From positions 10,867,519-10,931,518 of the forward strand of contig OZ020521.1 of assembly GCA_963971425.1 (NCBI GenBank): DNA of 64,000 nucleotides, in the 5' to 3' direction. The translations under genes and the position numbers were made by a program. Below the pieces are notes generated by a model. It was not told the DNA's origin. It made no database searches and saw only the letters and a list, made by a program, of their open reading frames with translations. The stretch comes from Bryoerythrophyllum caledonicum (lineage: Eukaryota > Streptophyta > Bryopsida > Pottiales > Pottiaceae). Below are positions 6,138 through 62,564 of this stretch, in pieces (positions within the stretch are counted from its first letter, which is position 1; every line of letters begins with the position of its first letter).

Positions 6138-9100
6138 ATGGCTAGTTTGCGCGTGCCGCGGAAGCTGGCGGGGAGGGCAATGGCGGATTCGATGGGCAGC
6201 AGCGCCGACGGCGACGACAACTCGCTGGACGGCCGGAGCTCCACGCACGGCGGGGAGAGCACTACCACGCGGAGGCAGAGCCTGGACTACCACTCGGCCA
6301 ATGTGTACCACTCGCCCACGGTCGCAAACAAGGCGAGTGACGACGCCAAGCCCAGGCGCCGCAGTGCCGCGCGCCCGGCCGGCCAGTACGCGTCCGCGGA
6401 TTTGATGAACGTCTTTAACGGCTCTGATCCGGTGCGCCTCGAGCTCACGCGCTTAGAAAACGAAGTTAGGGGTAAGTCTTCATCAGATGTGCTTCGGATT
6501 CTTGCTTCCAGATAGATCTGTCGAAAATGTGGCCTCAGGCGGCGGACCGTGATTTGAATCTTGTTGCCGTTGTTTTAGATAAGAATCGCGGATTGGCCGA
6601 AGCGCAGGCGGAGATCAAATCGCTCCGGCTCTCGGACCGGTTGAAACAGAAAGCAGTCGATGAGGTGAGTTCTGGTGTTTTTCTTCTTCTTCTTCTTGAA
6701 ATTTCTCTCGGTTTCATGTCTCACATGTCGCCCAAGATTCATGCGCATTTTGGATTTAGTTTTTTTTGGGGAGACACTCGTTCAAGAATCATCTGCATTT
6801 TGGTTTCATTTTCTTGTTCGGGCGATTTATGTTCAGCTTTCCGAGGAGCTGGAGAAGGTGGATGATAAATTGAAGGGGACGCTGGTGTTGCTTGACAACA
6901 AGGTATGCATTGGACATAACATTTGATTGCGTTTTTTCCGTGTAATTTTCTACGGGGAAGTAATACTGGTAGACGCGCTGGCAGAATCTAGAAGTGAAGA
7001 AAATTAATGACGAGAAGAAGGCAGCATTAGCCGCGCAGTATGCAGCGGAGGCGACTCTGCGGAGGGTGCAGGCGGCGCAAAAGGATAACGACCTGCCGTC
7101 GCTTGAGGTCATCTTGGCGCCTTTGGAGGCCGAGTTGAAGCTCGCACGACATGAGATTTCGAAGCTGCAAGACACCAGCAGAGCCCTAGATCGCTTGACG
7201 AAGTCGAAGGAGATGGCGCTTCTGGAGGCGGAGAGAACCATCAGAGCTGCTGAGGCGAAGGCGGCTATGGTGGACGACTTGCAGAACCGCAATCAGGAGC
7301 TCCTCAAGCAGATCGAGATTTGTCAGGTACTACTGTGAGAATTTCTTTCTTTTCAACGGGCCTATCGTGAGAGGTCTGCAACTTATAGTAAGTTTTCTTG
7401 GCAGGAAGAAAATAAGATCCTGGATAAAATGCACAGAAGCAAAGTGAACGAGGTTGAGAAGTTGAGTACGACGATTCGCGATCTAGAGGAAGCGGTTCTT
7501 GCTGGAGGCGCTGCTGTGAATGCTGCTCGTGACTTTCAACGCCAAGTGCATGAGCTGATGGTGAGAGAAATCTTTACATTACCGACGTTGCTAACATCTA
7601 GACGGGTTTTCTCGCGTGATCTGGTGTTCAAGGCTGATGGATTAGGCAGTACTATAGATTTTTTCCCCCTTGTCTAGCCTCTGCCGGTGGATTAATCAAG
7701 ATCAAATTCCGTGGTGTAGGAAGGGAAGCGGACTTTGGAGCGTGAACTTGCGCGAGCAAAGATCAGTGCAAACAGAGTAGCTTCTGTTGTTGCTAATGAT
7801 TGGAAGGACGAGAACGACAAGGTTATGCCCGTGAAGCAGTGGCTTGAAGAGCGGCGGTTTTTGCAGGTAGCCACTCTGAGTTGTTCTTTGGTTTGCGTCA
7901 TGCTGCAGCCAAGTTTCTTGTTATCAATGTATAATAACTCCTCTCATCTTGAAGGCGGCACGACCTGTTATATATTGGTTCATGGAACGGTTCTCTCTCT
8001 GCATGAGGAAGTTTATTAAGTAAGTTCGATGTGCAAACAGGGGGAAATGCAGCAACTGCGTGAGAAGCTAGTGTCGGCAGAGAAGACCGCCAAGAATGAA
8101 GCACAACTGAAGGTGAGCTTTCATACTCCTGCCTCATGTGAGTTGATAGACCTTCAAGTTGTGGCGGTCTCACACTGGTTTGTCCTTGAATTTCAGGAGA
8201 AGCTTCAGCTTCGTCTGAAGGTTCTGGAAGAAGGGTTGAAGGCCGGGAACGGGACCGTTCGTCGTCCAACAGGAGCTGCAGTTGAAGCGAAGCGAAGTTC
8301 CAGTGTCACTAGCAACGGAAGTGTACGAAAGCCAGGGGGAGCTGAAGAAGGAGCCAAAGTACTCGTCAATGGGTCCCGAACCCGGCGATCTGCTGTAAGC
8401 CAGTTGAGAGCCATGACTGGCCCAATTCTGAAGAACGGAAGACTGACGTCCAAATCTTTTGATGGAGGCCGGTCAGATGGCCGGTCATTTGATCCAGGTC
8501 CTTTACCTGTGATGAAACCTTTCACAAATGGATTTGAGGAGGTGCGCACGGGCAGGAAGAGTGCTGCTCCCGCTGTATCTGCAGCAGCTAGTAAGCCTGT
8601 AGGCTCCGAGCCTCCAAGCCCCAAACTTGCCAGTCCTGAACCCGCAGGCCCTGAACCTGAGCCAGAAACTGCGGCTGCGAAACAGAGAGTGGAAGATGGT
8701 GCCGCAGCAGCAACATCTAATGTCGCAGCAGATTCTACTGTTTCAGCAGACGAGCCTGTTTCTGAAAGTGCGGCTGATACCGTCTCGGGCGTGCTGTACG
8801 ATATATTACAGAAGGAAGTCATCTCTTTGAGAAAATCTTCGCAGGAAAAGGATCAAAGTCTCAAAGACAAGGATAATGCAATCGAGGTGCGTCCCATTTT
8901 ATCTCTCCCAAAGTCTGATTCTAGGCCACACACTCAGCTCATTGGAAACTAATTCTGCTTCATTTAATGCAGATGCTCTCGAGGAAAGTTGACACTCTGA
9001 GCAAAGCTATGGAGGTGGAAGCCAAGAAGATGCGCAGAGAAGTTACAGTTATGGAGAAAGAGGTGGCTGCAATGAGAGTTGACAAGGATCAGGACCGAAG

Positions 9101-16854: not shown

Positions 16855-18774
16855 ATGGATAATACTCCTTCAAGATCCGCATTACAAGTAAAATGTCGGT
16901 TTTGTTCTCACACCATGTTCTATATATATAGCGGGCAAGATGTTGTTGCACATGGAGTACCGTCCTCGCAGAGTCGCAGCGATGCAAGACATGATGGTCA
17001 AATGTGTAAGATGGTGCCTCTACATGTGCGTGTGTTGTTTCAAGAATGTGATGGGGGGTGTCTTGGATCGTCCAGATGTTGCCAACAATTTATCCCTCCG
17101 TCTAAACAATAAGGATGAAGTTTAGGTGGAATCTTTATTACCACTGTTTCTGAACAATGACGTAGAGCAAGTTCAGAATTTGCAAACCACATGTGACATT
17201 CAACTCACACAGGTAGATAAAGAATCTTAAAAGCTACGCCAACTCTCTTTGACCGAGGGGTTTAACTCTTCCGCAAAACAACTGTTGGATAGGATTTGAT
17301 CTAGTGTTTTTTACAAAGCAAACATTGCATTTAATATCATTAGGCATCATGCGTCTTTAAAAGCGGTTCATGAAACTGCACGCGTATGAATGTCGACGTA
17401 AGATCCACCGTCATACAAGGCCGTCCGTACAAAGTTGTTAGCAAACAAGAGAGCGGATCTAGAAAGGAGGATGAATGAGAAAATGGATGACTCTATATCA
17501 AAGGATGGGGTTACGATATGTAGTGATGGTTGAGACAACGTTCAAAATTGGTCATTGCTAAATGTTGTCTAGTCAGACACAAAAAGGGATGTTTTCCTTG
17601 GCACCATTGATACATCGGGGAATTACAAGGACCAATTCTATGTTGCTTCTCAAATCCAATCGTTTCTGCAAACATTTGGATTCCAAAAGTTGTCCAAGTA
17701 TGCACCGACAATGCTCTAGTCATGGCGTCCGCATGCCGTGACATCATGCAAGTAATTCCCCATTTCTATGTTCAAGGATGCACTGCTCATTGCTTGGATC
17801 TTTTACTGGAAGATTGGGGCAAAGAAAATTGGGTGAAAAGGACCTTGAGGAAGGCTAGGGTTATTTATTTATTCATCAAGAACCACCACACTTCACAAGG
17901 AATATTTTGAAGGCTATTACGAGGTCTTGCTATTGGTACGCCCAATGAGACACAATTTGCAACAAACTTTATCATGATTGAACGCCTCCTCCAAGTTTGC
18001 CAGGCCCTAGAAAGAATGGTGGTTGATGACCCATGGCATGTCTTTGTGGCTCAGTTGCGGACAAAAGCCCCAGCTACACATACAAAAGGCTTGTTTGCGC
18101 GGCAGGGGATACGCTCCAACGGATTTTGGGATACCTGTGTGAATTTTGAGTACATGGTATTGTCGGTGGTATGTATCCTTTGTGTATACGACGGCAATGC
18201 TCTTGCTATGGGCGTTGCATACAAGGTTATGCATGATTTGGAAAGTATTGTTCACAGGTTCGTCGAGGCCCGGTTCCAATTGAGGCAAGAATTGGCAACT
18301 CAGGCATTAGATGCCTTCAATGCAAGGTGGGGGCTTATGCTTATTGACCTTCATAAGGCAAGAACTATGTTAAACCTTTCTTTGCAAGGATGGGCCCCTT
18401 TGCATGAGAATGAGCACTTAAGACCAATCTTGAATCAAGTCCTTCGAAAGCTAGTTACGAGTACGGAATTTTTTCGGATGGTCCTCAACCAGTACCAGGA
18501 TTTCATTGAAAACAAAGGGACATTTTCAGATTCGATGGATCCAAACGTGCTTAATATATTGCTCCATGAATGGTGGGGTGGAATGGGAGGTGGAGCAAAG
18601 GCATTGCAGATAATTGCAAGACGCATACTTGCTCAAGTATATTCCGCATCAGCATGCGAATGCAATTGGAGCATGTACTCCTATGTACACAACAAGTCCC
18701 GCAATTGCCTAGAACATAGTCGGGCGGAGGACCTCGTGTACATTTACACAAATTCTAGGCTCCTAAGGCTTTGA
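16855..18774 (+). pseudogene. hAT-family transposase relic
   Basis: Decayed transposase read across several frames. A BED-like finger start ('KCRFCSHT') lies near 16,890. A DUF659 segment follows at 17,410-17,560 ('LLANKRADLERRMNEK', 'GVTICSDG', then a stop where Trp is usual). Next comes 'GNYKDQFYVASQIQSFLQ', then 'VIPHFYVQGCTAHCLDLLLE' at 17,750-17,815. The longest intact frame, 17,974-18,774, ends in the hAT dimerisation region ('ARRILAQVYSASACECNWS', 'SRAEDLVYIYTNSRLL'). hAT transposases cut and paste DNA with 8-bp target duplications. Several stops and at least two frameshifts make this copy inactive. Terminal repeats were not found. Confidence 0.85.
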
Positions 18775-25305: not shown

Positions 25306-26297
25306 TGACAAATGCGTAGGATATATGCATTTAAAGAGTTCAATATAATTTATTTTTCTATATGTGCACAGTCCAATTATGATAAATTTATTTCAACTAA
25401 GATTAATGGCATATCCTTCCACTATACATTGTATTAATTTTATGGAAGCTATGTTCTACCTTGACTTGGGTCATTGCAAGCCAAAAATCACGAGTAATGG
25501 AGGGGTTTAAGATAAGGAATACATTCTTGCAATGTCTAGGGGTACAAAATGGTGAATTTCCTTAGTATGGCAAATTTATTATCTAATAGATTAGCATTAA
25601 TTGGATAAAAAATTGAAACGCTAGATGACATCATCTTGCCTTCTTACGTTAGGAGAAAAAAAGATTGGAAGATTTTGAAATCCTTAATTTCTATGCATTT
25701 TTTATTAAAAATAATGAGGACTGCAAAGAACTTTTAAAGTTCTTTTTGGTTATATAGAAGGAACTAGAAGAATAACATAGACCATATAGACCAATACAAA
25801 TAAAGAGTTTGTGGACGTAGAAATACCACTTAGGCCACTAGGATCTAGATGGCGTTGACCACCTCTATTGCTTCTTCTTGAAGATAGACTCTATACAACG
25901 AAGAGTGTAGTAGCCAAATAGAAAATAACATGTATACACAAATGTGTGTTATTTGGTGTTGTAGTTGTCGAGCCATGACCTCAAAGTTGTTGATTGAGAT
26001 GGGTGTATCTGATATGATTAATCCGAATCTAAAACCTTGCAAGTTGCCAAATCATTTGGATAATTTTGTAGGTGTAGTAGCTTGACATTGCAAATGATAA
26101 ATAATAAGCAAGCGATGTATAATTGTACCAACCAATAGGATGTGTTTATTCCTCCAATGTTGATAATATTGTAACAATATTCATTTGTAATTGATGAAGG
26201 TGGTATTTGTTTTTATTCCTTTTATTTTTATTTGACTCTTTTAATAATTTTTAATCTAGTTGTATCTAGCAGACTAGCAGTAGTAACTGATTGTTTG
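25306..26297. other. AT-rich intergenic, nothing seen
   Basis: A/T-rich sequence with no domain-bearing frame. It flanks the large Mutator-like element on its left and should, in part, belong to the LINE copy that the element interrupted, but no LINE coding homology was recognised on this side. Confidence 0.4.
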
Positions 26298-26307
26298 CCT
26301 ATCCTTC
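26298..26307 (+). repeat. Left 10-bp target-site duplication
   Basis: GCCTATCCTT, identical and in the same orientation at 39,231-39,240 immediately outside the right inverted repeat. MULE target duplications are usually 8-11 bp. Confidence 0.85.
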
Positions 26308-26369
26308 AGGAATGCTATCTTGTGAGCGGTGAGCGGTGAGCGGTGAGCGGCGAGCGGCGAGCGGCGAGC
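26308..26369 (+). repeat. Left terminal inverted repeat with heptamer array
   Basis: Starts CAGGAAT, then GCTATCTTGTGAGCGG, then three more TGAGCGG and two CGAGCGG units, ending CGAGC. The right end (39,230 back to 39,181) is CAACGAC, GCTATCTTGTGAGCGG, two more TGAGCGG, one CGAGCGG, CGAGCA. The two arms differ mainly in heptamer number (six full units against four). Confidence 0.85.
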
Positions 26370-26379
26370 ACTGAATTCA

Positions 26380-27559
26380 TGACAATTTTTACCATTTTTT
26401 TTGTTGTGAAATTAAAAAGAACACCTATTGCCGAGAGTGTAGGTGGATCGTGCTTCAAAAAAAAAACAAAAAACAAAAAACATAAGAGAAATTATTGACC
26501 TGCAATCGCTTTAATTTATAGTTTATTGAATAGAGGCACCTATAGCCGTGGCACTATTATTAGAAATTTGGCAAAAAATCACAACTAAATTTGATAGTTT
26601 GATAAGTAATTTGATAAGAGAATCCGATAGATAAAAAATGATACTTATTGATGGATTATATACAATTGATATAATGTGTTTTTGAAATTAGAACTATACC
26701 TTTATCACACCATGAATAGTTTACGATATTTCGAATATTTTAAGATGGTCCATCACTATCATTCTCTCCACTTGGCACCCCGATCTTTCTTTCAGAAATT
26801 TCCATATTCCCACAATCCCATATCGATTGGTGAGGCTGGGGAGGTGTACTATATAATGGCTGAGTACAACCATTACCTCCAGTGACAAGCCAGGATGGCC
26901 TGGTCATCTCAAGTCACAATTGATACTGCCGTGGCAGCCTTCGGGTGCTAGTGCCGGGTATACAAGGACCTTGGGAGAGCAGCCTCATTCCGCTTGGTGT
27001 AGTTTAGATACAGGGTAGACACAGGGTAGGTGTGGTTGTAGCACAACAAGTTTTTTGTTTTTGTTTTGTTTTGTTTTTTTTCATTCGTCTTTTATATCCA
27101 TATAACATATTCACTTCATACATTTCGCTTCATGCACCTTGATATTTATTAGAATAGTACTACATATTTGACTCAATTAGAATAGTAATACGCATCCGAG
27201 AGAATTCTTCTACTGCAATTCGCAGAGTTATTCAAGCAATGTTTATCCATGGACTTATGATATTTGCAGCAAAACAATTTAGATAGTTGAATAGATGTAC
27301 TTTATCTCCATATTTTTAATTCTATTGTATAAGAAAATATGGGGTACATAGATGTACTTCTCCCCCATTAATGAAATTTAAAATCGGGCTTATTTGGAAT
27401 CCAAGTTTGCATTGAAATATATGTTATGTTATCTCTAACTAGAGTACAAACATTTATGTTATTGAATTGAGAAATCAAATAAGACTTGCAAGGGTCATAT
27501 ATATCCATAAATCCAAAGCCTCATATCAGGTCAATACGGCACACAAAATAGAAGAATCA
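26380..27559. other. Left subterminal region of the Mutator-like element
   Basis: A/T-rich and non-coding. It includes the subterminal motif 'cctatagccgtgg' at 26,532-26,544, a GC-richer patch at 26,885-27,000 and a (TTTTG)-rich run near 27,045-27,080. It should hold the 3' untranslated region of the ParB-methylase gene. Confidence 0.5.
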
Positions 27560-30500
27560 CTACTCTTCACTACTGAACTCATCGTCACTGCCCTGATGGA
27601 TAAACGGCATACTGCTATCAGAACCACTATCGGAATCAGTACTAGCCTCCTCAGCCTCGTCATCCACAAAATCCTTTGCTCCAGAACCGGATCGAGCAGT
27701 CGGAGGACGTCGTGGAGGCGACGGCTGCGCTACGGATGCAATGGCACCAGCTTCGGCATATTCAGGCAAAATATGACCATGCTCCGGACTCACAACCTTC
27801 CCTGCCAAGCGAGCAAGCACTCCAACGGGAGGTGTTGACAGAGAAGCCATCAACGACGTCGAGAACCGTCTGCAATAAATTTTCATTAGTAAAATACCAA
27901 TGATAGAAAAAGATAACGAAAAAACCAAATAGAAGAAGAGAACTTACTTACAAGTTCTCTTAGGCGCAGTCCTAATCTCTGGTTCATCATCACCAAGCTC
28001 CAAAGGGCGCTTGAGAGAAGTCTGCTCCACGGGCTCAACAATTGCAGAAGTAACCTCCACCGTTTGTGGAATCATGGGTCGAAGCACCTCGTCTACCAAG
28101 TCCTTGTCTGCCTCCAAGGCAAGAATATGACGCTTGAGGGCTTTGCAAGCCCTGATACTTGCACCTAGAAAAAGTGTAGAATACAAACAGAATGAAATTA
28201 GAATCATGGTTTGAAAATCAAACCACAAAATGCAAGTATAAAATTAAAATACCTGTAGAAGCAGTAAGGTCCATGACGATCTCATCCTCCTTGGTGCAAA
28301 GATCAATAAGTGCCTCCAACAGATTCTGCGACTTCTCTCTGGCTCTTCGCCATGGCATCCCGGTGGAGGCTCTCAGCGTCAGTGACTCCTGGGTGATGAA
28401 GTTGGTCAGATGACCGTCTGAAGAGAGCTCAATCCCATCCGCCAAAAGTTCCACTCTGTCATTGAAGACAAATGGAGTTGGAGGATCCGCCTTTCTAACA
28501 AAGCACTTGACCATGAAAGTCTTGTGTACGCGGCCGGGGCGAGCATCAGAGAAGAGGGGAAGTCCATTGATGGCGAACCACTTTGCCTCTTCGTCAAAAC
28601 CCGACCATTGAGCCCAGGAAACCAATTCATTTGAAATGAACCTAGAATCTGGATAGAACACGATGATAGCTCCTCCATCACGAAGAAATGACTCTACCAA
28701 CTCGAAATTAAACCGAATCCACAATGATTCTTTCCGACCCTTGGAGGTCGGCACTGTAGGTAGTGTGTTCCATGGTGGAATCACAGTACCACCCTGAATC
28801 CCTGGAACTGGCAAGTCCTCCGGGACGTCAAATATGAACATATCCGCCAAACCATCCTCTGTCAACTCCCCCTTCATGTACCGCGTCTTGGATCCGCCAT
28901 GGGCAATCAACCACTGTGCTATATCCCTCCAAACTGGTGGAACGTCATCCTCAGCAGTGACTGAATCATAGTCAGTAAAGATAGAGTAGGCGCTCGTATT
29001 GATTACCTCAACAGCAACAGTGGATTCTGTCTGCTCCACGATAGGAATCGAATAGATGGTCTGCGCTGGTTTCGCAACGAATACTCCTGGGCGGCTGCTA
29101 GCAGATGGAGAAGCGCCAAATGTCGTTAATACAGGTGCCGGCTGTGAGAACGATCCAAGTCCCACGGCAGACAACAATTTCTCGGGCCCCTCCTTGGCCA
29201 CCAGAGCTGCCAATTCCTTGTTCCTCACTCGAGTCTCTTTCTTCTCCTTCCTTGCACTCTCCTTCTCCAAACGGGCCGCTTCTCGCTCAGCGACTCTGGC
29301 TGCAATCCTGGACGCCTTCTGTTGTGCCCTCTCCTTGGCCTTTTCAGAGAGCTCAAGGTCAGGCTCAACCTAGAATGGAGCTGAAGCTTGCAAAGCTGGA
29401 CCCGCACCAGAATGTTGAGCCAAGGCATCACATGACTCCCGAAGCTCCACCTCATCACCTGGAGTTGGAGCTGAATGCCAAAGTTCCAAATACCAAGGAC
29501 ACTGCGCCAAATGATGCCGAGTAAAACGGCGCAACTGAGACTCTGTGAAAATGCACTCAGTGCTGACTGTGGTATCACACCTCTTTCTCAGCCGGATTGG
29601 CAACTCCCGAGGCTGCAAAGCTCCATTGGCAACGAGCTCTTGCCAAAAATAGCGGAGCACCACTCTCTTCACACTCTGAGGTGTCTCGGGCTGCTTGAGA
29701 AACTCATCAGACTTCACTGCTTGAATAAACGAGTACAAAGAATTGAATAAAAGACTACCTCTTTAAAAAAACTCTTCACCATTACAAGGGTCAGCAATAG
29801 CTAGAAGTCGAGTGAGTAAGGTGCCACATTGAGTCTTCTTCTTTTGTACCGCTTCAGAGCATAGAGTGACTAACTCCGCAGAGCTCCCAACACGATCAGC
29901 CCCAACACTGGTCACAAGTGTGTCACGGTAAGATCGAATACAATCTTCTTGAGCTGCAATAAGCTCCCGCTACACGAAGAAAATTTTGTTGTGTATTAGT
30001 ATACTTTTCCATATTCAATAACATTACATATACGTATTCTGGGGCATGAATAACAGCATAGAGTTCACAATGATGGACCGAACTTAACCCCAACGTACCT
30101 CATAAAGTAACTTCAAGAATGAATCAAAGGTCATATGGTACCACTTTTTGGTGCCCTTTCTAGCCCACTCTGCCACACTAGCATCATGATCCTCCTCACT
30201 AATCAGACCCTTGAGCTGATCGAAGTCCAAAAGTCCAAAATGCTGAACTCTCTTCACATCATGTGACAGTTGCTGTGTCACATGGTCGGAGTCTTTCTGC
30301 CTGAGTTACAATCTTTATTGACTTCAAAGTCATGCGGAAATACCAATAGAAATACGTATCTGATGAAAGAGGGAAACAAAAAAAGGAAATAAAGAAAAGA
30401 ACTCACTTGTTCCAGTCCGTCATGGCGTTTAATAATATATGGCGGTTCACCAATGAGGGCTCTAATAAAACTGCCCGAACCGGAACATGAAAGGAAGAAT

Positions 30501-33500
30501 CGAGTCTATGCATGGTGGATATGACATCCATCCATGCAAGATGGCGGTGGTTGCCATCCCACACAAAAAAGTAACGATTAGAAAGGCTGCGCAACTCTGG
30601 CCTACTCGCAATCAAAGCCTCAAACTTCTGGTCCTCCGCCCTCCATAGTTCTGACCATCCCTCACGCTCCTCAGGCAAAACTTCCCGCTCGACCATGGAA
30701 AAGTCCTTCAATGCTACACAGAAACATGCAGACCCAGATCGGTAGCCTTTGACAAACTCGCTCTTCAGCTTCTCTATGTCCGGCTTGACTGGAATTCCCA
30801 CCTCCGTCATTGGCAGCATTCGGCAAAGTGGGATGTGCAACTCTCCAATAGATGGATAATGAGACCTCTGGAGCACATCGTAGGAAGTCCCACAAATGGA
30901 CTTCCTCAATGAAAGCTCAGTTGTGTCCAAACCGGGATCCACCCCCATCACCGGTACTAATTGCAGGAGTAAACTTGAATCAGCATTCGGCGATCTCGAT
31001 GCCTCTGGCGTGTGCGATCCTGCAGCCCCTAGACCAGAAAACGTGTGCACACTAGGCATCCCCAACTCCTCTGTTGGAATGACCTTGTCTCCGTGAAGTG
31101 ACTCCATCTGAGGACATCCAGAGTAATCAGTTAGGATATACAAACAATAACATGTAAGAAAAGCTTTTCCTAACTCAAGGAAAAATACCAAATGCAACAT
31201 AATATGAAGAAAGCAACATGACTGAAATGCATGGAGCACGAATTGACTAAAAAAAAAATTTTAAAAACTTTCTCTCACATGGTAATGTTGAAAACTAATC
31301 CAGAACGTTTAGACAAGTTCACAATGCAGAATAAAAAAAAACATTATAAGTAAATGGAATTAAACCAAATCGTGAAACAAACTGAAATGGCCCTCCCACG
31401 ACTACTATACTAAAACAAGATTCCTGAACTCATGACTACTGGAAAGCACAAGAACGAACAAACAGCAAGCTCGCACGACGCATGTGTGAGCCCAATATTT
31501 TTAAATAAAAAACCAAAACAAAGAACTGCTCACAGTACCTCGGATCCGAGGGACGCCTAACAACCTCCAAATTCGGTTCTGGTTTTAATCTATCATGGAC
31601 CACTCTACTCGGAATTGTGAACTCTTCAACATAATCTAGATTGGAACTGAAATGGACCTACAACATCTAGCAACTAAACTCACTATAAAATTCTAGCACT
31701 CATGAATGAAGGAAAGTTAATGCGCATACACACAACATGCTTACAGACATACTATGCATGTGTGAGCCGAAATTGGAAAAAGAAAAAATCAAAACTAAGT
31801 ACCAGTCACTGTACCTCGGATCCGAGGGACGCTGAACAACCTCCAAGTTCGGTTCAGATTCTAATCTATCATGCACCTTTCTACTCTAAATTATGAACTC
31901 TTAATCCTCATCTAGATTGGAACTGAAATGGACTTAAAAGCACCTAGCAATTAAACTCACTCTAGATTGTAGCACTCATGATTGTAGGAAAGTTAATGAG
32001 CATACACACAACATGCTCACAGACATACTATGCATGTGTGAGCCGAAATTGGAAAAAGAAAAAATCAAAACTAAGTACCGGTCACTGTACCTCGGATCCG
32101 AGGGACGCTGAACAACCTCCAAGTTCGGTTCAGATTCTAATCTATCATGCACCTTTCTACTCTAAATTATGAACTCTTAATCCTCATCTAGATTGGAACT
32201 GAAATGGACTTAAAAGCATCTAGCAACTAAACTCACTCTAGATTGTAGCACTCATGATTGTAGGAAAGTTAATGCGCGCATACACAACAAGTTCACAGAC
32301 CTTCTATGCATGTGTGAGCCGAAATTGGAAAAAAAAAAAACCAAAACAGAGTTCTGCTCATTGTACCTCGGATCCGAGGGACGCTTAACGGCCTCCAAGT
32401 TCGATTTTTTTTTTACATCTGTCTTACTTATCTTAACTGTGATGAATGAAATTATAAACCGAATAATGATATAATTTGAATTGGACCTTGATCACGTCCC
32501 AGAATTACTGAGCTTAGATTCTTAATACCAGAGACTATTGAAATGCATAAACACGAAACACATCAAGTAAATTAAATGTGTGAGAAGGTGATAGTAAGAC
32601 CCAACAAAATAAACCACAATATAGTGCACACAGTCTCTCTAGGTGGAGGGACAAGAGGCTCGATTCGACTCTGGAACCCAGTTAACTCATAAGAAGAGGA
32701 AACATCGTCATCCTTTCCAAGAAGATGCATATCAGGTTTTATTTCAGAGTAGAGTATGAATTCACCACTAAAGTGAGCCGGTTCTTCCCGGATTCGGCAG
32801 CGTCTGCTCCAAATCTTATGAACGCACTTTCGGCTCGTGCATCAGAAGCACCAACCTGATTATGTCTCAACGCATTTAGGGTTTATGAAATTCAATGAAC
32901 AATGCTCACAGTAACACGGTTTACAGGATTGAAAAACGAAAAATATGTATTGGGTAATGTGCGGCGGACTTGTTTTCATACTTCAAATTCAAGTACCGAA
33001 CTTCAAAATGAGCCACAGGACTTAGAATTTCCAATTTTGAAGTGAAACAAGTGAGTTGAAATAGATTTCAACTTACCTCTCTAGTTTGTGGCTGCAGCTC
33101 CGCCTCGCCGTGCGTCTGTCCACTTCCTTCACCGTTCTCACAACCTTCTGCCTGCAAGAGAAAGGGATTCCTTATTATGCATAACAGGGTTCAGCAAGTC
33201 CACCATTCATTCAAACTGAAGTTTACGGACGAATCAAAAATGCGATGCTTTGGCAGAAACCCTAGCCGAAATTGTTTACCACACAGAAGTATACTTCAGC
33301 CGCCACTTGTTAGTTCACGAACTACATGGTAAGTAAAATGGAGGTTCAGTGAAGCCCTACAGGAGCAACAGCTCTTGCTCGAGTTGAACTCAAAATGAAC
33401 CAGACAACTTAAAACTCGAGAATATTGAATCGGTCAATGTCCTCACATACTAAAAGACAGATTCTAGAAACTTAATAGTCTAGTAAGCATGACGCACATT

Positions 33501-34187
33501 ATAGTTGGAGACGCATTGTGATATTAAGGATACCAAACATACGATGCATTATGTAAATCATTCTGATGATATTGTACCTGTGTCATTTGGGCCCTCTCGG
33601 CACCCAATAGTATTGGCCCAGTTTCCCCTATGCTTCCTCGATCGTTCCGTGGTCGACCATTGGTTGCCCTGGACGAGGACCTATTCCTATTCCTTGTGGA
33701 TCGTGTTGAATTAACTCGGCTCCTTGGGTCCATACTTGAGTCCATGCTTTGACAGTCATTGTCGTCAACAACACCGTTTGCACCCTTACCCCCATGCATC
33801 GAGCTTACTGACGCATTAGGTCCAGTGAAATCACTCGTCATAATATCTTGTATAGACTCTTGTTCCTCCCTTTCACTACGCAGCTGCATCACATAGCTGG
33901 ACGACTACACAGTACGATTTAAAGTATGACCAATACATGATTGCACTATTGAAAATTTACTTATCATATGAAAATGAAGCACTTACTTTAACAATATTGT
34001 GTGGCGCCTCTTCTGCTTGAAGTATACTTGACAAATTCCTGAATCGCACGGGCCCCTCAGATGACAGGTCCTCACGCCTCTCCTCTGAAACCTTGGCCTT
34101 GTGCTGTTGTCGCCGCGTTCCAGACCGACTGGGCTTTGGATATGAGTCGTCTGTTGCTCTTCTCTTCCGGCCACCCTTGCTTGTCAT
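27560..34187 (-). CDS. ParB-like / beta-class DNA methyltransferase-like protein on a MULE
   Basis: Ten exons join with consistent phase: 34187-33987, 33904-33578, 33151-33077, 32856-32632, 31107-30407, 30300-30099, 29969-29780, 29716-28253, 28164-27948, 27869-27560, coding about 1303 residues. Residues 1-276 are charged and disordered, with a basic nuclear-signal-like start ('KGGRKRRA'). Residues 365-495 resemble a ParB/sulfiredoxin fold: 'GELHIPLCRML' ... 'VWDGNHRHLAWMDVI' ... 'VPVRAVLLE'. Residues 756-815 are a charged helix. Residues 930-1160 follow the order of beta-class N4/N6 DNA methyltransferases: 'FIFDVPEDLP' in the motif IV place, 'RDGGAIIVFYPD', 'RAREKSQNLLEALIDLC', 'VMDLTASTG' as motif I, and 'HILALEAD' as motif II/III. 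The tail is acidic. DVPE instead of D/S-P-P-Y/W makes catalysis uncertain. A TAG at codon 756 would stop translation unless the 81-bp GT..AG stretch 29,450-29,370 is spliced out, which preserves frame. The function is inferred, not known. Confidence 0.75.
31435..32540 (-). repeat. Four-fold 276-bp tandem repeat with exon-like blocks
   Basis: Units of about 276 bp are marked by 'cctcggatccgagggacgc' at 31,538, 31,814, 32,090 and about 32,367. The two middle units are almost identical; the outer two are diverged. On the minus strand each holds a block of 40-46 bp ('GAACTTGGAGGTTGTT' ... 'CGTCCCTCGGATCCGAG') preceded in three units by an AG and followed in all by a GTAC donor-like sequence, so it looks like a multiplied small exon. 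The repeat lies within the 1.5-kb intron between exons 4 and 5 of the ParB-methylase gene. These two exons join in phase without it, so the blocks may be alternative, cryptic or dead exons. Confidence 0.8.
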
Positions 34188-34782
34188 CCTCTGCAAGTCG
34201 TCGTGGTTGCATCACATTGAACATTTTCACCAGGGTAGTGCTGCTATGATATGGCTAGTTATCGTAGAACCATAATTACCCCACTTAGGTCTATGATACT
34301 ATTTTATTGTGTTGGCAACGGGATGGCCCAAATTCCGCATCAAGTTAATCAATTGTTGTCAGCCTTAATTTGAATTTCAAAAACAAAGTTAGTCGTGACT
34401 ATAGCATTTCTATTACTTGCTTCTGCAGTCAGAAGCATTCCACTTTTCTGGATTTATCATTTTCCGTAAGTGAATAACGACAACACCAGGGAATAATTAA
34501 CTTCAAGCAGACTTAGTGGCTTAGTAGATACAACTAGTGCATATCTTTTTGTAAATTGCTGACTCAGATCATGACCTCTAGATTTGAATCTGAACTTTGT
34601 CGTTTTCGTGTGAACATACAGCATACACTCGTTTATCACTAAATTGAATGATAAACTCCCCCTTAGTAGGATCAACCTATTAATTTCTTTCCTTAATTTG
34701 AAATCTTTTCCATAATGATTGCGGCGCCGTCAGGGAGCGTGCATGGGCATCTGACATAAAGCGTTAAATATTTTCGCCGATT
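34188..34782. promoter_or_regulatory. Divergent promoter region of the two MULE genes
   Basis: The 595 bp between the two start codons must hold both promoters, one on each strand. The region is A/T-rich. No clear TATA pair or shared box was recognised. The plus-strand start could be as late as the ATG at 34,915, and an in-frame AG just before the minus-strand ATG leaves room for a 5' untranslated exon. Confidence 0.5.
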
Positions 34783-37700
34783 ATGAGCACGATGCGTTTC
34801 CGTAATTGGACGTCTCCACTGAGATGTTTAGGCAAGTTGTTGATTTCTTCAATATCCAACCGTCATCATAGACAGCACGCATTCCATATCCTATGCTGTG
34901 GAGAGCTCTTGACTATGGCGTCACTAACATCTCAGTATGGTGGTGTTCCGCTTGTCGTGTCCGTTGGCGAGAATGGCACTGTTAATGTCCCGGAGGCAGT
35001 CCTCAGTAGTCGCTTCGGGTATAGACTTGGAACCGTCCATGTTGAGCAAGAGGTGTTTGATAGCTCGGGAGTATTAGAACATTCTATATACCAAGTGAAA
35101 GATCGAGACGATTTAGGCTTTCTGTGGAACCTGTGTCGTGGTTCTTTTAAAGTATATGGTGTTAGGGATACTCAAGCGTCCGCTAATGCGTCGTGTGCCA
35201 TGATGATCCCTCCTACTGATTCTCGTGATACAATACTCGTGCCCGGTTTGGGCACACAGTCTAACCCAAGCGTGCAGCTTCTAAGTGACACGGACGAGGA
35301 CCTCTCTGATGTGAATTTAGGGGAATCGTCGTACATCTTTAAGTCACAAGACTCTATCTGTCCCGATACGTCTAACCATACCCCAAGTAGGTCGCACATG
35401 TCTTCGTCTCTTTCCTTAGGAAAATCACCTGTCCATCCAAAATCTAAAAGTATCCGCAGTATCATTCCTTATGTTCGCAGGACCTGTACTAGAAAGGGAT
35501 CCCGTTCTGAGTTGACACAAGTGGATTTCGACAGCATTCAGGTTTCACGTGTGAAGTATCTGCCTCCGTCTTACAACGGGGACGTGTTGTTTGAGTTGCC
35601 CCCACTTCCAGAAGGCATACCAACTCAGTTTGGAGGAGGACTGGATGGTATGAGCAAGCAACACGATGGTCACACATGGTGCAAGACAATGACTACGAAT
35701 ATCATGAATGATTTTGGCCTCACATATCGGAAGTCATCTTGTACTGGCCATCTTCAATGTCCTAACCTTCATTGTGACTATAAGTGCAGGAATGAAGGTC
35801 GCACTAATCAAACGGAGTGGAGTGGACTCGCCATTTTCCCTTGGCCTATGAATGGCGCTACGCACCCTAAATCAACCTTGGCTTGTAAGGTTTGTCAAAC
35901 CCCGCCTATTTGTCTAGCTCTCTGTGATGCTCGTATTTATTATGTGACGTGTACCGATGCGGAGCGCACCCAACTTGCCATTCATCTTGGTATTCACCAG
36001 CATCCCATCTCGAATGGAGTTGACCAAACCGCAATGGATGTGATGCATGAGTGCGTTGCGAAGGAAGTCGAGCGCACATCCAACGCCACTAATTCTGCTA
36101 TCATTATGGCAGCCAGTAAGAATTACCTATCCGATTACTTGATCCGTCCCGGATCGGGATCATCAAACTTTGAAGGAGCATCCATGGATGTTGTCTTGGA
36201 TCAGTTCCAGACTCTATCATCCCCAAACATTCGAAATTTGGTATCGACATGCAAGTGCTTCTACAGTAGTGGGAAGGGTGTCATGGACAACATCATGGAG
36301 CTAAAGGAGTCATCCAAGTTTGTCTTCATCCACGAGAACAAGTTCCCGGGCCAATCTAAAGGTAAGGTATTTGTATTTAAAATGTCTGTTGATCGTCCGG
36401 GTAGCGGTGTTGATCTTGTTCGGCGGATGCAACCGGGTGGAGACCTTCAAGATTGTTGGTTGATGTTTGATCACGTTAAGCGGGTTAAAGACTGGACTAC
36501 CATGGCATGCCATGTATACGACAGTAAGTATTGTAAAGTTATGACGATAGCTATGTGTGATATGCAATCGGAGGATGCTCAAGCACAACAGTTGTTTTGG
36601 GAGAACCTGAATGATACGATGAGCCATCACGGAGTGGAGAATACGAACTTTAAAGGGTTCATGGCTGATAGTGCCGGAGCGAATTGGCACGCTGTCCGAC
36701 GAGTGTATGGCAATGGCGACAAGGACGTCCCGATCGAAAACAAAGAACGGACTTGTTTATTCCATTGGACCAAGTGCCTTCAACGAGCCACCACGAAGAG
36801 CATTCTACCAGCATTCCAAGATCAACACATTGCACTTTGCAAGATTTGGAAGAACGCGAGATCACAAGAAGAGGCTGAAGCACAGTACAACGTCATTTGT
36901 GGATGGTGGATTTCATCTGGGGCTACTACCGAAAGCGGGCGTCGGGCGCTAGAAGATTGGATGGTTTTTTGGCATTTCCGATATAGACAATGGGGTGGAG
37001 CAATGCAACTAGTAAGTTCTCGGATTTTTTGTTCATAAATATTCAGATTGTTGAAAAGTTATATATAAACGATGTACTGACCATTGTTGTATGATATCAG
37101 GACCTCACACTGGACGAGCGAGCTGACATGCCATCATGTAATCTTGCGGAGACAGTCCACAACCGCTGGCTTCAACAGTTCGGAAATACCATGACATGTT
37201 TATATGCGGCTACCGTGGATGACCTAATTCGGGCTTTCATGCAAATCACTTTGTACCGGGCATGGATCAATGGAGGGACCTCCGGAAAATGTCCAGACAA
37301 AGGTACACTTCGATTAAGATCTGCCCAACGTTCTGGTGATCCAAAACTCATTGCAGAAGCTGTGCGGAGTTTTCCGGGGGCAGATGATCTCTTAACAAAG
37401 ACGGGCGGGCTCGTAGGAGCGGAGATTTTTGGGTCTACCAAACGGAAACTTGACATGCCACCGGGGTCCAGCAACGACTCCCACCGCTCCGATACGGTGA
37501 ACTATTCGATTCCACGAGATGGCAGAAGGGTGACTCGAGCGCGGATCGAAGAGGCCCTAAATGAACAAGGTTCCGGGGTCCGTCACTCAACGGCAGTATT
37601 GGAATCGGAGGTTGATCCATCAAAGTGGCACATTGGTCGACTTCCGAAGACCTCCCACCGAAAGTGCCAGGCATTGCAGGCTCACACTGGTCAGAGATGT

Positions 37701-38468
37701 GACGCTAGAGTTGGACGTGGGAGTCAGGGAACACCTGCCCCAACATATATTGGCAAGAAGAAGGAATTCAGGTCGCCCCGAAACACTACTGTCGAGTTAT
37801 GGTTTTGTGCTGATGATATTAACCGATGCATGATGGGTTCGAAGAAATCGTTTGTAGTGGATTGGCCATCAGTCCCAATGACATGGCCAGTGAAGCTTGG
37901 CACGAACCTTACGATGCAAGAAGTTTCATCGTTAGAAGAAGCAGGTTTTCAGTTAGAGCAACGTGGTGCTTTGTCGCCTCGGAGACAATTCCAAGTAACT
38001 TTGAACATGCCTCTTCCGCGATCAAACTTCCCGCTTCCAGATAATCCGGACTCATACCATACTTTCCGCAACGGCTACCAGATTCGTCGAAGTTCAGATG
38101 TGCCTTCCGTTGAGCACCGAAACAAGTGGTCAAGCGCAGCTCTGATGAAGAATTGCTACGTTACAAATGTCACCGCAATACTGTATCCGGGATTTGGATG
38201 CGTTATCACTCTTCTAACGGAGAAAGAGAAGTCTTATTGCATAACCTTCACAGACTACCCTGCGTGTACATGTCGAGATTTCCTGAAGATGTCAGTGGAG
38301 GCGTTGGGGAAGAAAGAGCAATGGAAGTACTGCAAGCATGTGTACTACATCCTACGCTATTTATGTAAGATGGACTACAAGGAGGACTTATTCATGCATG
38401 CCCCAAGCTACAGCTTTAACGAGGTCATGCGCATTCTAGAGCTTGCTAATATTGCCGAGCAAGCATGA
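34783..38468 (+). CDS. Mutator-like (MULE) transposase with GCM/WRKY-like and SWIM zinc fingers
   Basis: Cuts and reinserts the element by binding its terminal repeats in the nucleus. Two exons, 34,783-37,011 and 37,101-38,468, join in phase through an 89-bp GTAAGT..CAG intron, giving 1198 residues. Near residues 317-410 lie 'TGHLQCPNLHCDYKC', 'CKVCQTPPICLALCDARIYY' and 'HLGIHQHPI', a Cys/His layout like the WRKY-GCM1 fingers known at the N-terminus of many MULE proteins. The DDE core spans about 555-740: 'WLMFDHVKRVKDW', 'FKGFMADSAGANWHAV' and the C-x-x-H 'TCLFHWTK'. A SWIM finger follows at about 1131-1156: C-T-C-R-D-F ... Y-C-K-H. No stop or frameshift is present. Translation may start instead at the ATG at 34,915, where a 'MASLTSQYGGVPLVV' start looks more protein-like. 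The catalytic Glu was not assigned with certainty. Confidence 0.9.
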
Positions 38469-39180
38469 ATCTTGCAATGAAGTATCTTTTGAATAGTATT
38501 TGTATTTTGCAGTAGCTCGTATCTGAACATCTGCATTGATTTTGCTTGTCACGTGTATGGCTAGTACTCAATGCTTGAGTGAATTTATCACTCATACTTC
38601 TCTTCAATATACTAATTTATATTTCACACTATCATTTTTTCTTATACATTATTTATACCAACTTTAGAGATGCTATGTTAGCAACATGCAGAAGTTATGT
38701 CATGCATTGGCATCATATAACATCTCTCATTTTGAACCATGCAAACTCAATGTGGAGAGATGGGGTATCTTAATCCATTGGAAATAGTTTATAATCAAAT
38801 ATTAGAACATTAGAATATTATTTGTCCCAAACATTGTTATTATAGCTATCACGATGAAAATATATGACTCCACATCCATTACTATTGGACTCCACAATCA
38901 TTGTAAGTTTTATTAGATTTTTTATTTTATTGTGGACTTTGTAATTTTATCCATTTAATAAATGGACCCTAAACTGCGAGTTGAAAGTTGTGGACATGAG
39001 CAACAAAAGGGAGTCGCTAAAAAACGTCTATGGTTAGTGATTCCACGGCTATAGGGTACCTTCTAAGTTTAGAAAATTCTTCCAATTTTTTTCGCAAAGT
39101 TTGTGAGAGTTATCGTTAGTTTCCGTGAAAAAAAAATTCTGGAAAAAAACGACTTTTTTTCTTGTTTTTAGACTATTTTC
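38469..39180 (+). other. Right subterminal region of the Mutator-like element
   Basis: A/T-rich, non-coding; holds the transposase 3' untranslated region and the inverted subterminal motif 'ccacggctatagg' at 39,047-39,059. No other gene seen. Confidence 0.5.
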
Positions 39181-39230
39181 TGCTCGCCGCTCGCCGCTCA
39201 CCGCTCACCGCTCACAAGATAGCGTCGTTG
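39181..39230 (-). repeat. Right terminal inverted repeat with heptamer array
   Basis: Reverse complement of the left end: four full heptamers then 'CACAAGATAGC' and 'GTCGTTG'. See the left repeat for comparison. Confidence 0.85.
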
Positions 39231-39240
39231 GCCTATCCTT
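39231..39240 (+). repeat. Right 10-bp target-site duplication
   Basis: GCCTATCCTT, matching 26,298-26,307 exactly. Confidence 0.85.
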
Positions 39241-44471: not shown

Positions 44472-45959
44472 CTAATCATATCCCAAAACTGGAGACAAAC
44501 TGAGCAAATTGGCCATGGTTTCAGGCGTGCCGCTGAACTTCCTGGCGAAGAGGAAGCACGGCGAGTTGGGCACGCCGTTATATACACACGACTTCTCGCT
44601 GGTTTCACCCCTCATCTTTTCGTACTGATAGAAGCCGTGCGCGTTGAAAGTGAGATTCTGGAAGCCCTGGATGAGCGCAGGGGTGACGTTGGATGCGTTA
44701 AACATGACGGGCGAGGTTTGGCCGCGTATATGGCCCACCCAGTTAACGTACACCAGGGAGCGATGCGCAATGGAAAGCGGATCCAGGACGGTGAACAGGG
44801 TGGGGATATAGACCTCGGACGAAAAGCCCGTCCTGTACCAGTGGTGTTTGAATCTGGGGAAGTAGTAGCGGTCGCCCACGATCAGGCCCGCGTGGCGCCG
44901 GTGCACCGTGATCCACGCCTCGCCTTTGCGCACGAACTGCATAGGGACCGCCATGTCGCCCGTGGTGCGGACCCAGTTGTGGCGCCGAAACTGATTTTTC
45001 GTGTTGTACGCCTCCACGAAGCTGCGGTCGGACCGCGTGATGTAGTCGTAGGCAAACGGGAACGAGCGGATGGGGACGCTCGAGTCGCAGAGCACGTGGA
45101 ACCACGCGTTCGGGGTGGTGGAGTCCAGGAGCGCGTAAGCTAGCAGGCGCCGGACGGCTGCCGGGAGCGAGATCTTCCACTTGTTGACCGGCTGGCTGGG
45201 GATGGTGCGTTTGTGGAAGAGGGACCCGGACGCGAACTGGTGGTGCCGGTTCGTGTCGTGCACGTAGATGGAGTACTTGTCCTCGTGGCCAGCGAAGAAC
45301 TTCTTCCAGACTGGCTCCGAGGCAATGGCACCGCGCGTGAGGAAGAGGAAGGCGATGCGCGGCGTGCCGGGCGCCATGGGCCGCTTGGCGTGGCGGTAGG
45401 CTGCGCAGAGCGCTTGCTCGTCGTTGAAGGCGCCCGTCACCCAGTCCCGGTACGTCATGGTGAGATTGTCGTCGACGCGGTGTTGCCTGCAGCCCCAGAT
45501 GTCCGAGTCCGCTTCGGAGAAGTATGAATTCGGTGGAATTTGCAACTGTGCTGATGGCGATTCGTCGGACTCCGTGAGCTTCACCACCTGCTGCTTCCGC
45601 TCATTCTCCTTTCGCTTGAGCTCATCTTCCCTCTGCTCCAGCTCAGCCTCCTTTTGCTTCAGTTCAGCCTCCCTTTCCTTCACCTCAGCATCCATTTGAG
45701 GTTCCGAGACCGGAAGATCGTTGGGAAGAGTATTTGAAGGGAGCTCGTCCAAACTAGAGCTGGATAGCGTTGTGTTGATATATGAAGAATTATCTACCAT
45801 GGCAAAAGGGCAGTGGTTTGGGACGGGAGGGCTTCCGTTCCATGTGACGATCTGCAGCGCTAGCAACAGCACAAGCGCCAGGGCGGCCAACACCTTGGTC
45901 ATGTTGTTCACGCTCCATTTGTTCCACTGGCCGTCGGATTGATGATAAGTCGGCAGCAT
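44472..45959 (-). CDS. GT14 (core-2/I-branching, BC10-like) glycosyltransferase
   Basis: Golgi type II membrane protein of the plant DUF266/BC10 group, thought to add sugars to cell-wall glycoproteins or polysaccharides. Uninterrupted single exon of 495 residues starting ATG at 45,959. Residues 1-20 are cytosolic and 21-39 ('KVLAALALVLLLALQIV') are the membrane anchor. Residues 50-90 are a Ser/Asn-rich stem and 90-130 a Glu/Lys coiled-coil stem. The catalytic domain starts at about 195: 'RIAFLFLTRG', 'KYSIYVHDTN', 'WFHVLCDSSVPIRSF', 'RKGEAWITVHRRHAGLIV', and towards the end 'SPCFLFARKFSGT'. These match the family's P-x-I-A-F-x-F-L and G-x-Q-W-x-x-x-x-R-x-x-A blocks. Codon use is GC-rich, as in the MAP70 gene, and unlike the transposon debris. 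The acceptor and donor are not predicted. It looks functional. Confidence 0.92.
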   Translation of the reverse strand: MLPTYHQSDGQWNKWSVNNMTKVLAALALVLLLALQIVTWNGSPPVPNHCPFAMVDNSSYINTTLSSSSLDELPSNTLPNDLPVSEPQMDAEVKEREAELKQKEAELEQREDELKRKENERKQQVVKLTESDESPSAQLQIPPNSYFSEADSDIWGCRQHRVDDNLTMTYRDWVTGAFNDEQALCAAYRHAKRPMAPGTPRIAFLFLTRGAIASEPVWKKFFAGHEDKYSIYVHDTNRHHQFASGSLFHKRTIPSQPVNKWKISLPAAVRRLLAYALLDSTTPNAWFHVLCDSSVPIRSFPFAYDYITRSDRSFVEAYNTKNQFRRHNWVRTTGDMAVPMQFVRKGEAWITVHRRHAGLIVGDRYYFPRFKHHWYRTGFSSEVYIPTLFTVLDPLSIAHRSLVYVNWVGHIRGQTSPVMFNASNVTPALIQGFQNLTFNAHGFYQYEKMRGETSEKSCVYNGVPNSPCFLFARKFSGTPETMANLLSLSPVLGYD

Positions 45960-61370: not shown

Positions 61371-61661
61371 ATTTGATGGATCAAGAGCCATCGATGGTCA
61401 ACCCTGGGGAAGTATTGATGCCGGATGGGATGGGGCCGGAGGGGCGGCCTTCAACTAGCAACAAATTCAGAGTGTTTTCCAAGCCGCAATTCCTCATTTG
61501 ATGCAGGAGATTTCAAGCAGAGCAGTAGGGGGACCACGACCGATTGTCTCTCCCACATCCAGTAGAGGAGTATTAGGAGGGAGGTGTACAGAATCAAACA
61601 TTGAACATAAGCAGTCTAAGGTAGCTGAACCGGATAAGTTTTCCGGGAGAAAGGGAATGAG

Positions 61662-62564
61662 GTGTACCGATGGTTTGCGCTACTCCGTATTGTATTTCGA
61701 GGTAAGCCGCGAACTTATAGCTCTACTGCAGATAAAATAGCTTCTGCTCTTTCGTATGTGACTAGAGTGGCACAAAATTGGGCTATTTGTCAAGCCTTGG
61801 ACGAGGAACGTGGTCACAAATTATTGGGTGATTACAATGCTTTTCGAGAATCCGTTATTGCAATATATGGGAATATTGATCGTAGGAGCAATGCCGAGGA
61901 TCACCTTGGAAAGCTTCGACAAACTGGGTCAGTGGCTAATTATATTTCTATGTTTAATGAATATGCGGCTCAACTTGATTGGAATGAATCTAGTTTGGTG
62001 GCTCGATTTCGTGGTGGACTTAAGGAATTTTTTTTGGATTCGGTGGCGATAGCTAAGGCTCAACCGCGGGGGCTACAAGAGTGGGTGTCGATGGCGTCAC
62101 AAATTGATGAGAGATTGTGGAGTCGGCGTCAAAACCGGCGTTCACAGCTTGAGGCTCCACGTTTCCGATCTCCAACAATCTTGCCACGAGATGTCGTAAG
62201 GAAATTTCAATCTAACTCAAATACCTCTAGTTCGGTGCCACTGGAGCTTGGTGCGGTGCGTGCCCCTACTACAGCCTTGGCAAAAACAACAGCGGAACGA
62301 CAAGAGTATCAACGTCAAGGGCGTTGCTGGGGTTGTGGTGAGTTAGGTCACATTCGATCGCGTTCCTCACAAATCCATCCAAGCCATTATCTGTTTCAGT
62401 TATCATTGAAATGGAAGGCATCTCTTTGGGGAAAGAGAAAGCCCGGGACTGAAGGAGAAGCTTCAGTACCCGGGCATCATTCAAACCGTCGCTGCCATCA
62501 TTCAGAAGACACCCACGGTAGAAATAATATGAAATGTGGACAATATAATGGAGCAACACCTTGA
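61662..62564 (+). pseudogene. Gypsy gag with damaged zinc knuckle
   Basis: A 300-codon open frame covers a retrotransposon gag domain: 'RYRWFALLRIVF'-type start, 'ALSYVTRVAQNWAICQAL', 'YNAFRESVIAIYGN', 'KLRQTGSVANYISMFNEYAA' and 'FRGGLKEFFLDSVAIAKAQP'. It also covers the nucleocapsid knuckle 'CWGCGELGHIRSRS', where the last Cys of C-x2-C-x4-H-x4-C is Ser. The start of gag lies upstream in another frame (61,498-61,740: 'KVAEPDKFSGRKG'), so a frameshift separates them near 61,660. After the knuckle the frame runs into unrelated residues. Confidence 0.8.

Follow-up and report, generated by a model that had tools for sequence, protein, structure and literature searches.

The window analysed here, a 64,000-nt stretch of contig OZ020521.1 of the moss Bryoerythrophyllum caledonicum (positions below are those of the window), contains an element from a large Mutator-like family. 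The full module of this family consists of an inverted end, a leftward accessory gene, an array of the palindrome CTCGGATCCGAG, a rightward transposase gene and a second inverted end (Table 1). Elsewhere in the window there are a piece of a MAP70 microtubule-associated protein, a land-plant family (8020-8949, + strand; Pfam, 2.9e-35), a hAT dimerisation domain (17911-18771, +; Pfam, 7.2e-9), a Core-2/I-branching glycosyltransferase in a single open frame (44475-45959, −; Pfam, 2.6e-41) and a retrotransposon gag (61638-62561, +; Pfam, 8.5e-10).

Table 1. Features of the Mutator-like element in the window. L005 is a relative of the accessory gene described in the text.
Feature	Position	Strand	Remark
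Left copy of target site duplication, GCCTATCCTT	26297..26306		
Left terminal heptamer CAGGAAT	26307..26313		Accessory-gene side
Left inverted repeat	26314..26355		GCTATCTTGTGAGC, then GGYGAGC heptamers
Last accessory exon	27560..27869	−	Acidic Ser-rich tail; 37.5% identity to L005
Accessory exon ASIRACKALKRHILALE	27948..28164	−	Stretch after motif I
Accessory methylase-domain exon as present in window copy	28253..29716	−	Start missing relative to relatives
Break site	29717..29785	−	Initially annotated as a 69-nt intron
Accessory exon RELIAAQEDC...	29786..29969	−	
Accessory exon QKDSDHVTQQ...	30099..30300	−	62% identity to L005
First core accessory exon, ELHIPLCRMLPM	30407..31107	−	ParB-like WDGNHRHLAWM; 52% identity to L005:552-1178 overall
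Tandem array of four 276-nt units	31414..32517		Upstream of accessory ATG
Palindrome CTCGGATCCGAG (1)	31539..31550		
Palindrome CTCGGATCCGAG (2)	31815..31826		
Palindrome CTCGGATCCGAG (3)	32091..32102		
Palindrome CTCGGATCCGAG (4)	32367..32378		
Exons 1-3 of the initial annotation	33077..34187	−	34187-33987, 33904-33578, 33151-33077
Transposase exon 1	34915..37011	+	D519, D585, C614xxH617
Transposase exon 2	37101..38468	+	Presumed catalytic E716 in NLAETVHN, SWIM-like CxC...CxH
Right inverted repeat	39182..39223		
Right terminal heptamer, outside-in CAACGAC	39224..39230		
Right copy of target site duplication	39231..39240		

The two inverted arms, 42 nt each, are 98% complementary, and seven bases beyond them stands a perfect 10-bp direct repeat; a shared run of at least 10 bases was obtained in only 8 of 20,000 shuffles of the two 25-nt element flanks. 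The element thus has the terminal inverted repeats and the 8-11-bp duplication of a Mutator-like element (MULE). Inverted ends with heptamers and the perfect repeat had both been described in the initial annotation, which placed the start of the duplication at 26298, one base off. The terminal heptamers are the element's own sequence, as the same or similar heptamers are found at the ends of further copies: CAGGAAT is identical at the left end of the copies C1_5249200, C1_7194200 and C1_7352000 and is found at C1_43115500 too, and the transposase-side heptamer CAACGAC of the window corresponds to CAGCGAC or CAGGGAC in further copies. When five end pairs were checked for a target site duplication, the match was 10/10 in the window and C1_5249200 and 9/10 in C1_7194200 and C1_7352000; the degenerate pair of C1_4092200 matched at 4/10, that is, had no duplication. 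The first 21 bases of the left inverted repeat, with at most one mismatch, have 521 forward and 545 reverse matches in the 437-Mb genome, compared to none for the reversed control. By eye, we also noticed two such inverted ends spanning 192 bp at positions 1502-1693 of the C1_12268300 stretch (G000:C1 ~12269801-12269992), flanked at a distance of seven bases by a perfect 10-bp duplication, AGTGTGCGAT; they form a miniature non-autonomous derivative.

The transposase exons join into a frame of 1154 aa without any stop, in agreement with the initial reading of an intact MULE transposase. Residues D519, D585, C614 and H617 are invariant in all 22 aligned members, and E716, identified by eye in the window protein, is probably the third catalytic acidic residue. 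A DDE layout with C2H between the second D and E is that of Mutator-like transposases. The SWIM-like motif was found by eye close to the C-terminal end. Pfam profiles contribute little here: none of the MULE, Transposase_mut and SWIM families matched the window transposase at E ≤ 1, a Pfam profile search with exon 2 alone gave no match, and PF00872 matched two of the 22 members, with a best E-value of 0.034. The element is therefore classified as Mutator-like because of its ends, duplication and residue layout, and not because of a Pfam profile. Among 3392 candidates, 593 protein clusters were related to the transposase core at E ≤ 0.001, 120 of them listed.

As initially annotated, an oppositely directed gene adjoins the transposase. 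Its structure could be interpreted with the help of two relatives found by scanning contigs of prokaryote genomes, L005 (CADCWO010000058.1) and L006 (CADCWO010000134.1). Both are binned in the cyanobacterial MAG AVDCRST_MAG81, to which they are foreign because the genes contain introns; they represent eukaryotic contamination in a public genome. The sample behind the MAG is presumably soil crust, judging by its label, and our guess is that the contigs derive from moss. The MAG holding L005 also encodes a transposase 78% identical to that of the window and open over 719 aa. The accessory gene of L005 is complete, with seven exons, 1136 aa and no stop. Compared to it, the window copy lacks, at the break site, an entire exon (219 nt) together with the beginning of the exon after it; its frame is lost at about 29763-29765, and an in-frame TAG (29370-29372) lies inside the methylase-domain exon, where those relatives (from 19 protein clusters) that span this codon align across it without an intron. 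In the window copy the transposase is thus open and the accessory gene broken. The ten exons joined in phase in the initial annotation can indeed be built, but exons 6-8 of that reading sit on the break, and the reading is partly an artefact because the copy is damaged. The region of its exons 1-3 is clear in two of the 10 other copies and weak in a third, and is therefore probably an optional extra. Between the array and the transposase, 33077-34187 (−) holds a 201-codon open frame, basic and rich in Ser and Arg, which is perhaps a third, optional gene. The ATG of the first core exon stands directly 3′ of a splice acceptor. In C1_5249200, from the same genome as the window, the stops fall, by eye, in parts matching L005 introns, and this accessory copy looks intact.

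The C-terminal domain of the accessory protein is a relative of N6/N4 DNA methylases, which bears out the initial suggestion of a bacterial- or phage-style protein. Against the Pfam family N6_N4_Mtase (PF01555; curated cut-off 26.7 bits), the window accessory exons scored 29.6 bits and the C-terminal domain of the spliced relative P0006 scored 31.1 bits, with unspliced members and full-length L005 (20.5 bits) not reaching the cut-off. The domain is also matched by PHROG DNA methylases (2.8e-6 and 2.4e-5), by the CcrM model (4e-6, far under its own cut-off) and, in tblastn, by phage methylases (7e-4); no phage methylase was matched with the window exon alone as a query. Among annotated phage proteins, the closest matches are DNA methylases that are either adenine-specific or of unspecified type. 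Profile comparison gave 0.0075 (probability 5%) for E. coli YhdJ and 0.47 for PrmA, a methylase of another class. In the alignment VDLIIFDVPE falls on VDLIFADPPY, and DIVMDLTASTG on DIVLDPFAGS. The methylase-domain exon of the window displays motif IV-like DVPEDLPVPG, motif X-like REKSxNLL and motif I-like DLTAST|G, and its charged region is probably a coiled coil.

The catalytic motif of this domain has been lost. Across 20 members the motif IV column reads DVPE in 13, DVPK in three, and DIPE, DVHE, NVLE and DMPE in one each; (D/N/S)PP(Y/F/W) is found in 0/20, there being never DPPY and no aromatic fourth residue. A protein of the N6/N4 methylase class without motif IV of this form should not methylate bases, and the DVPE-like motif in all 20 members suggests that the accessory protein is probably no working methylase, at variance with the DNA-modifying activity initially proposed. 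One glycine of motif I is replaced (by eye). The motif is changed only in part, so that binding of the methyl donor may be retained, and the motif I-like stretch and the sequence after it are conserved. The protein had also been described initially as ParB-like, and its N-terminal part carries the motif WDGNHRHxAWM. This part had no family match in Pfam, PHROGs, PDB sequences or phage records and chance matches only in plasmid records, and hhalign to YbdM gave 0.082 at DGxHRH, compared to 0.12 for the control. The ParB likeness, drawn from the single DGNHRH motif, is unproven.

The accessory protein is under purifying selection, as indicated by a dN/dS of 0.107 between L005 and L006 (148 synonymous and 65 non-synonymous differences over 882 codons, stop codons omitted; L006 carries one stop near its end). 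The ratio is 0.169 in the methylase part and 0.062 upstream of it. Relatives in other database records are 37-57% identical. A further 13 shorter relatives (P0009-P0021) are probably decayed; their mutual identities are 72-92% over 78 pairs, and the contigs that carry them have 13 distinct lengths.

The strongest clue to accessory function is the palindrome array, which is absent from the initial annotation. The 12-bp palindrome CTCGGATCCGAG, which contains GGATCC, occurs once per 276-nt unit. In the 437-Mb genome it is found 1281 times, compared to 8 for its reversed control, which is a palindrome too. L005 also has an array upstream of its accessory gene, of period 106 and running to the contig end; its units fold into long hairpins, and three of four contain the same 12-mer. 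Shuffled sequences also share some 12-mer with the window (31 of 3000 when units are shuffled, 131 of 1000 when arrays are), so the presence of CTCGGATCCGAG in both arrays is weak evidence by itself; it is the genome count that decides its enrichment. Across copies the palindromes are spaced 126 to 1932 apart. When 10 other arrays were compared with that of the window, only the C1_43115500 array aligned at length, three shared single pieces of 56-68 bp and six shared nothing. This low similarity shows that differing arrays formed around one motif. A copy of about 23 kb between exact ends (G000:C1:43116657-43139729) has at least 21 palindromes, mostly 274-277 apart, and is a case of array expansion.

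The two-gene module recurs in the genome. By hand count, the first 50 listed places of CTCGGATCCGAG form 18 groups on C1, of which all 10 with at least two sites were fetched by motif alone and the eight single-palindrome groups were left out. Accessory-gene sequence is present in 10/10 of these clusters, in one as a diverged relative, and a divergent transposase with the palindromes between both genes in 8/10; in C1_43115500 the transposase match covers the first 27 residues, at the edge of the stretch. In the C1_12268300 cluster the array and accessory exons stand together, and no transposase was matched. No transposase was matched in C1_28349500 either, where the only accessory gene is a diverged one (25-44% identity) that has the array on the opposite flank. 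Neither gene and no palindrome was found in four 10-kb control stretches or in the window outside the element, and the control stretches had no exact 14-base element end. The genes thus lie side by side within element copies, in C1_5249200 inside ends with a perfect 10-bp duplication, and the accessory gene is part of the element family and does not represent a fixed host locus, as is also seen from P0009-P0021 on contigs of 13 lengths.

Mutator-like elements with an accessory regulator are a known kind; what seems new in this family is its accessory protein and its palindrome system. In maize MuDR, with a target site duplication of about 9 bp, the transposase and accessory genes likewise lie inside terminal inverted repeats; however, mudrA and mudrB are convergent, whereas the genes described here are divergent with the array between them, and we know of no methylase fold in mudrB. 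With beta-class N6/N4 methylases (YhdJ, CcrM and phage enzymes) the accessory protein shares domain order and motif register, TQKPxxLL..DIVLD aligning with REKSxNLL..DIVMD, but it lacks DPPY, also comprises an N-terminal part and a charged region that is probably a coiled coil, and is encoded by an intron-containing, transposon-borne gene. The DGNHRH motif and palindromic repeat sites beside the gene recall ParB-parS, although the ParB-like part has no family match and CTCGGATCCGAG bears no known sequence relation to parS. Bacterial-type DNA modification in a eukaryote is also known from bdelloid rotifers, with the enzyme N4CMT; unlike there, the catalytic motif of the accessory protein is lost and its gene is part of a transposon. 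In the rotifers, 4mC is reported to be a DNA mark (PMC8885841).

The closest parallel is offered by VANDAL elements of Arabidopsis, which carry the VANA transposase and the anti-silencing protein VANC. VANC is reported to bind short sequences in the non-coding parts of these elements and to cause loss of DNA methylation; its motifs (YAGTATTAY, AGTTGTCC and AGTTGTAC) build up in tandem and vary from one related element to another (PMC5735166). The moss family likewise combines a Mutator-like element, a second gene and a short motif amplified as differing tandem repeats. It differs from VANDALs in having terminal inverted repeats, VANDALs being described as non-TIR in a 2026 gene-capture review (PMC13317346); in addition, the named VANC motifs are not palindromes, and the accessory protein has a methylase-like domain. 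VANC is most likely the appropriate working model, the accessory protein not being classed as a VANC and being likened to it by published description only. Literature word searches retrieved no Mutator-like element paired with a ParB- or methylase-like gene; a word search of a Mutator survey found neither methyltransferase nor ParB in its main text (PMC6446971), and one of the gene-capture review did not find methyltransferase (PMC13317346).

On balance, we lean towards the accessory protein being an element-encoded, sequence-specific DNA-binding regulator that would use its own palindrome array in a VANC-like manner. With its bacterial-type N6/N4 DNA-methylase fold, lost base-methylating motif and N-terminal resemblance to ParB at one motif, the protein would bind the CTCGGATCCGAG palindromes in the control region common to both divergent genes. 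Such binding would keep or set the expression of both genes, through anti-silencing and/or autoregulation, and may mark element copies as self. A methylase turned reader would explain the kept fold together with the lost motif. The protein that binds the palindrome may instead be the transposase or one of the host. More speculative, and in our estimate rather doubtful, is a scenario where a catalytically dead ParB-methylase-type protein reads a parS-like palindrome, with arrays arising anew between the genes in each subfamily, and where self-recognition and anti-silencing have emerged independently of VANC.

Alternatively, the palindromes could be transposase sites or structural elements (hairpins, an insulator, or a start of replication or transcription), with the accessory protein doing something else, such as aiding transposition. 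Their location in the common control region and the long hairpins of the L005 units fit this explanation, which we nevertheless find unlikely given that the element ends bear another repeated motif, GGYGAGC, and that C1_12268300 keeps the array and accessory exons without a transposase match. A still working methylase, acting on element DNA possibly at the GATC/GGATCC of the palindrome and leaving a mark that protects or guides the element, is improbable in view of the motif IV found in all 20 members (D-V-P-E/K and similar) and the replaced motif I glycine, even though the domain exceeds the Pfam cut-off, its nearest annotated phage matches are methylases, the motif I-like stretch and the part following it are conserved, and the palindrome holds GGATCC. 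There is very little to recommend the view that the accessory gene is passive cargo, captured from the host or from a bacterium: several copies, including that of the window, do look broken, but the low dN/dS between L005 and L006, the accessory sequence in every palindrome cluster and the relatives in other database records all speak against it. Finally, chance adjacency of two unrelated insertions in an ordinary Mutator-like element, which the single window alone could not exclude, is refuted by the same gene order in 8/10 clusters and by C1_5249200, with both genes within ends and a perfect duplication.

To our knowledge, transposon-encoded factors acting sequence-specifically on their own DNA are known mainly from VANC. 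If the DNA-binding regulator proposed here is real, it would be a second such factor, with another fold and a visible 12-bp candidate site, and would imply that such systems arise repeatedly. The family would then offer a direct test, with one protein, one motif and 1281 genomic sites. It also points to a methylase fold of bacterial type that has stayed under selection despite loss of the catalytic motif, perhaps serving purely to read DNA.
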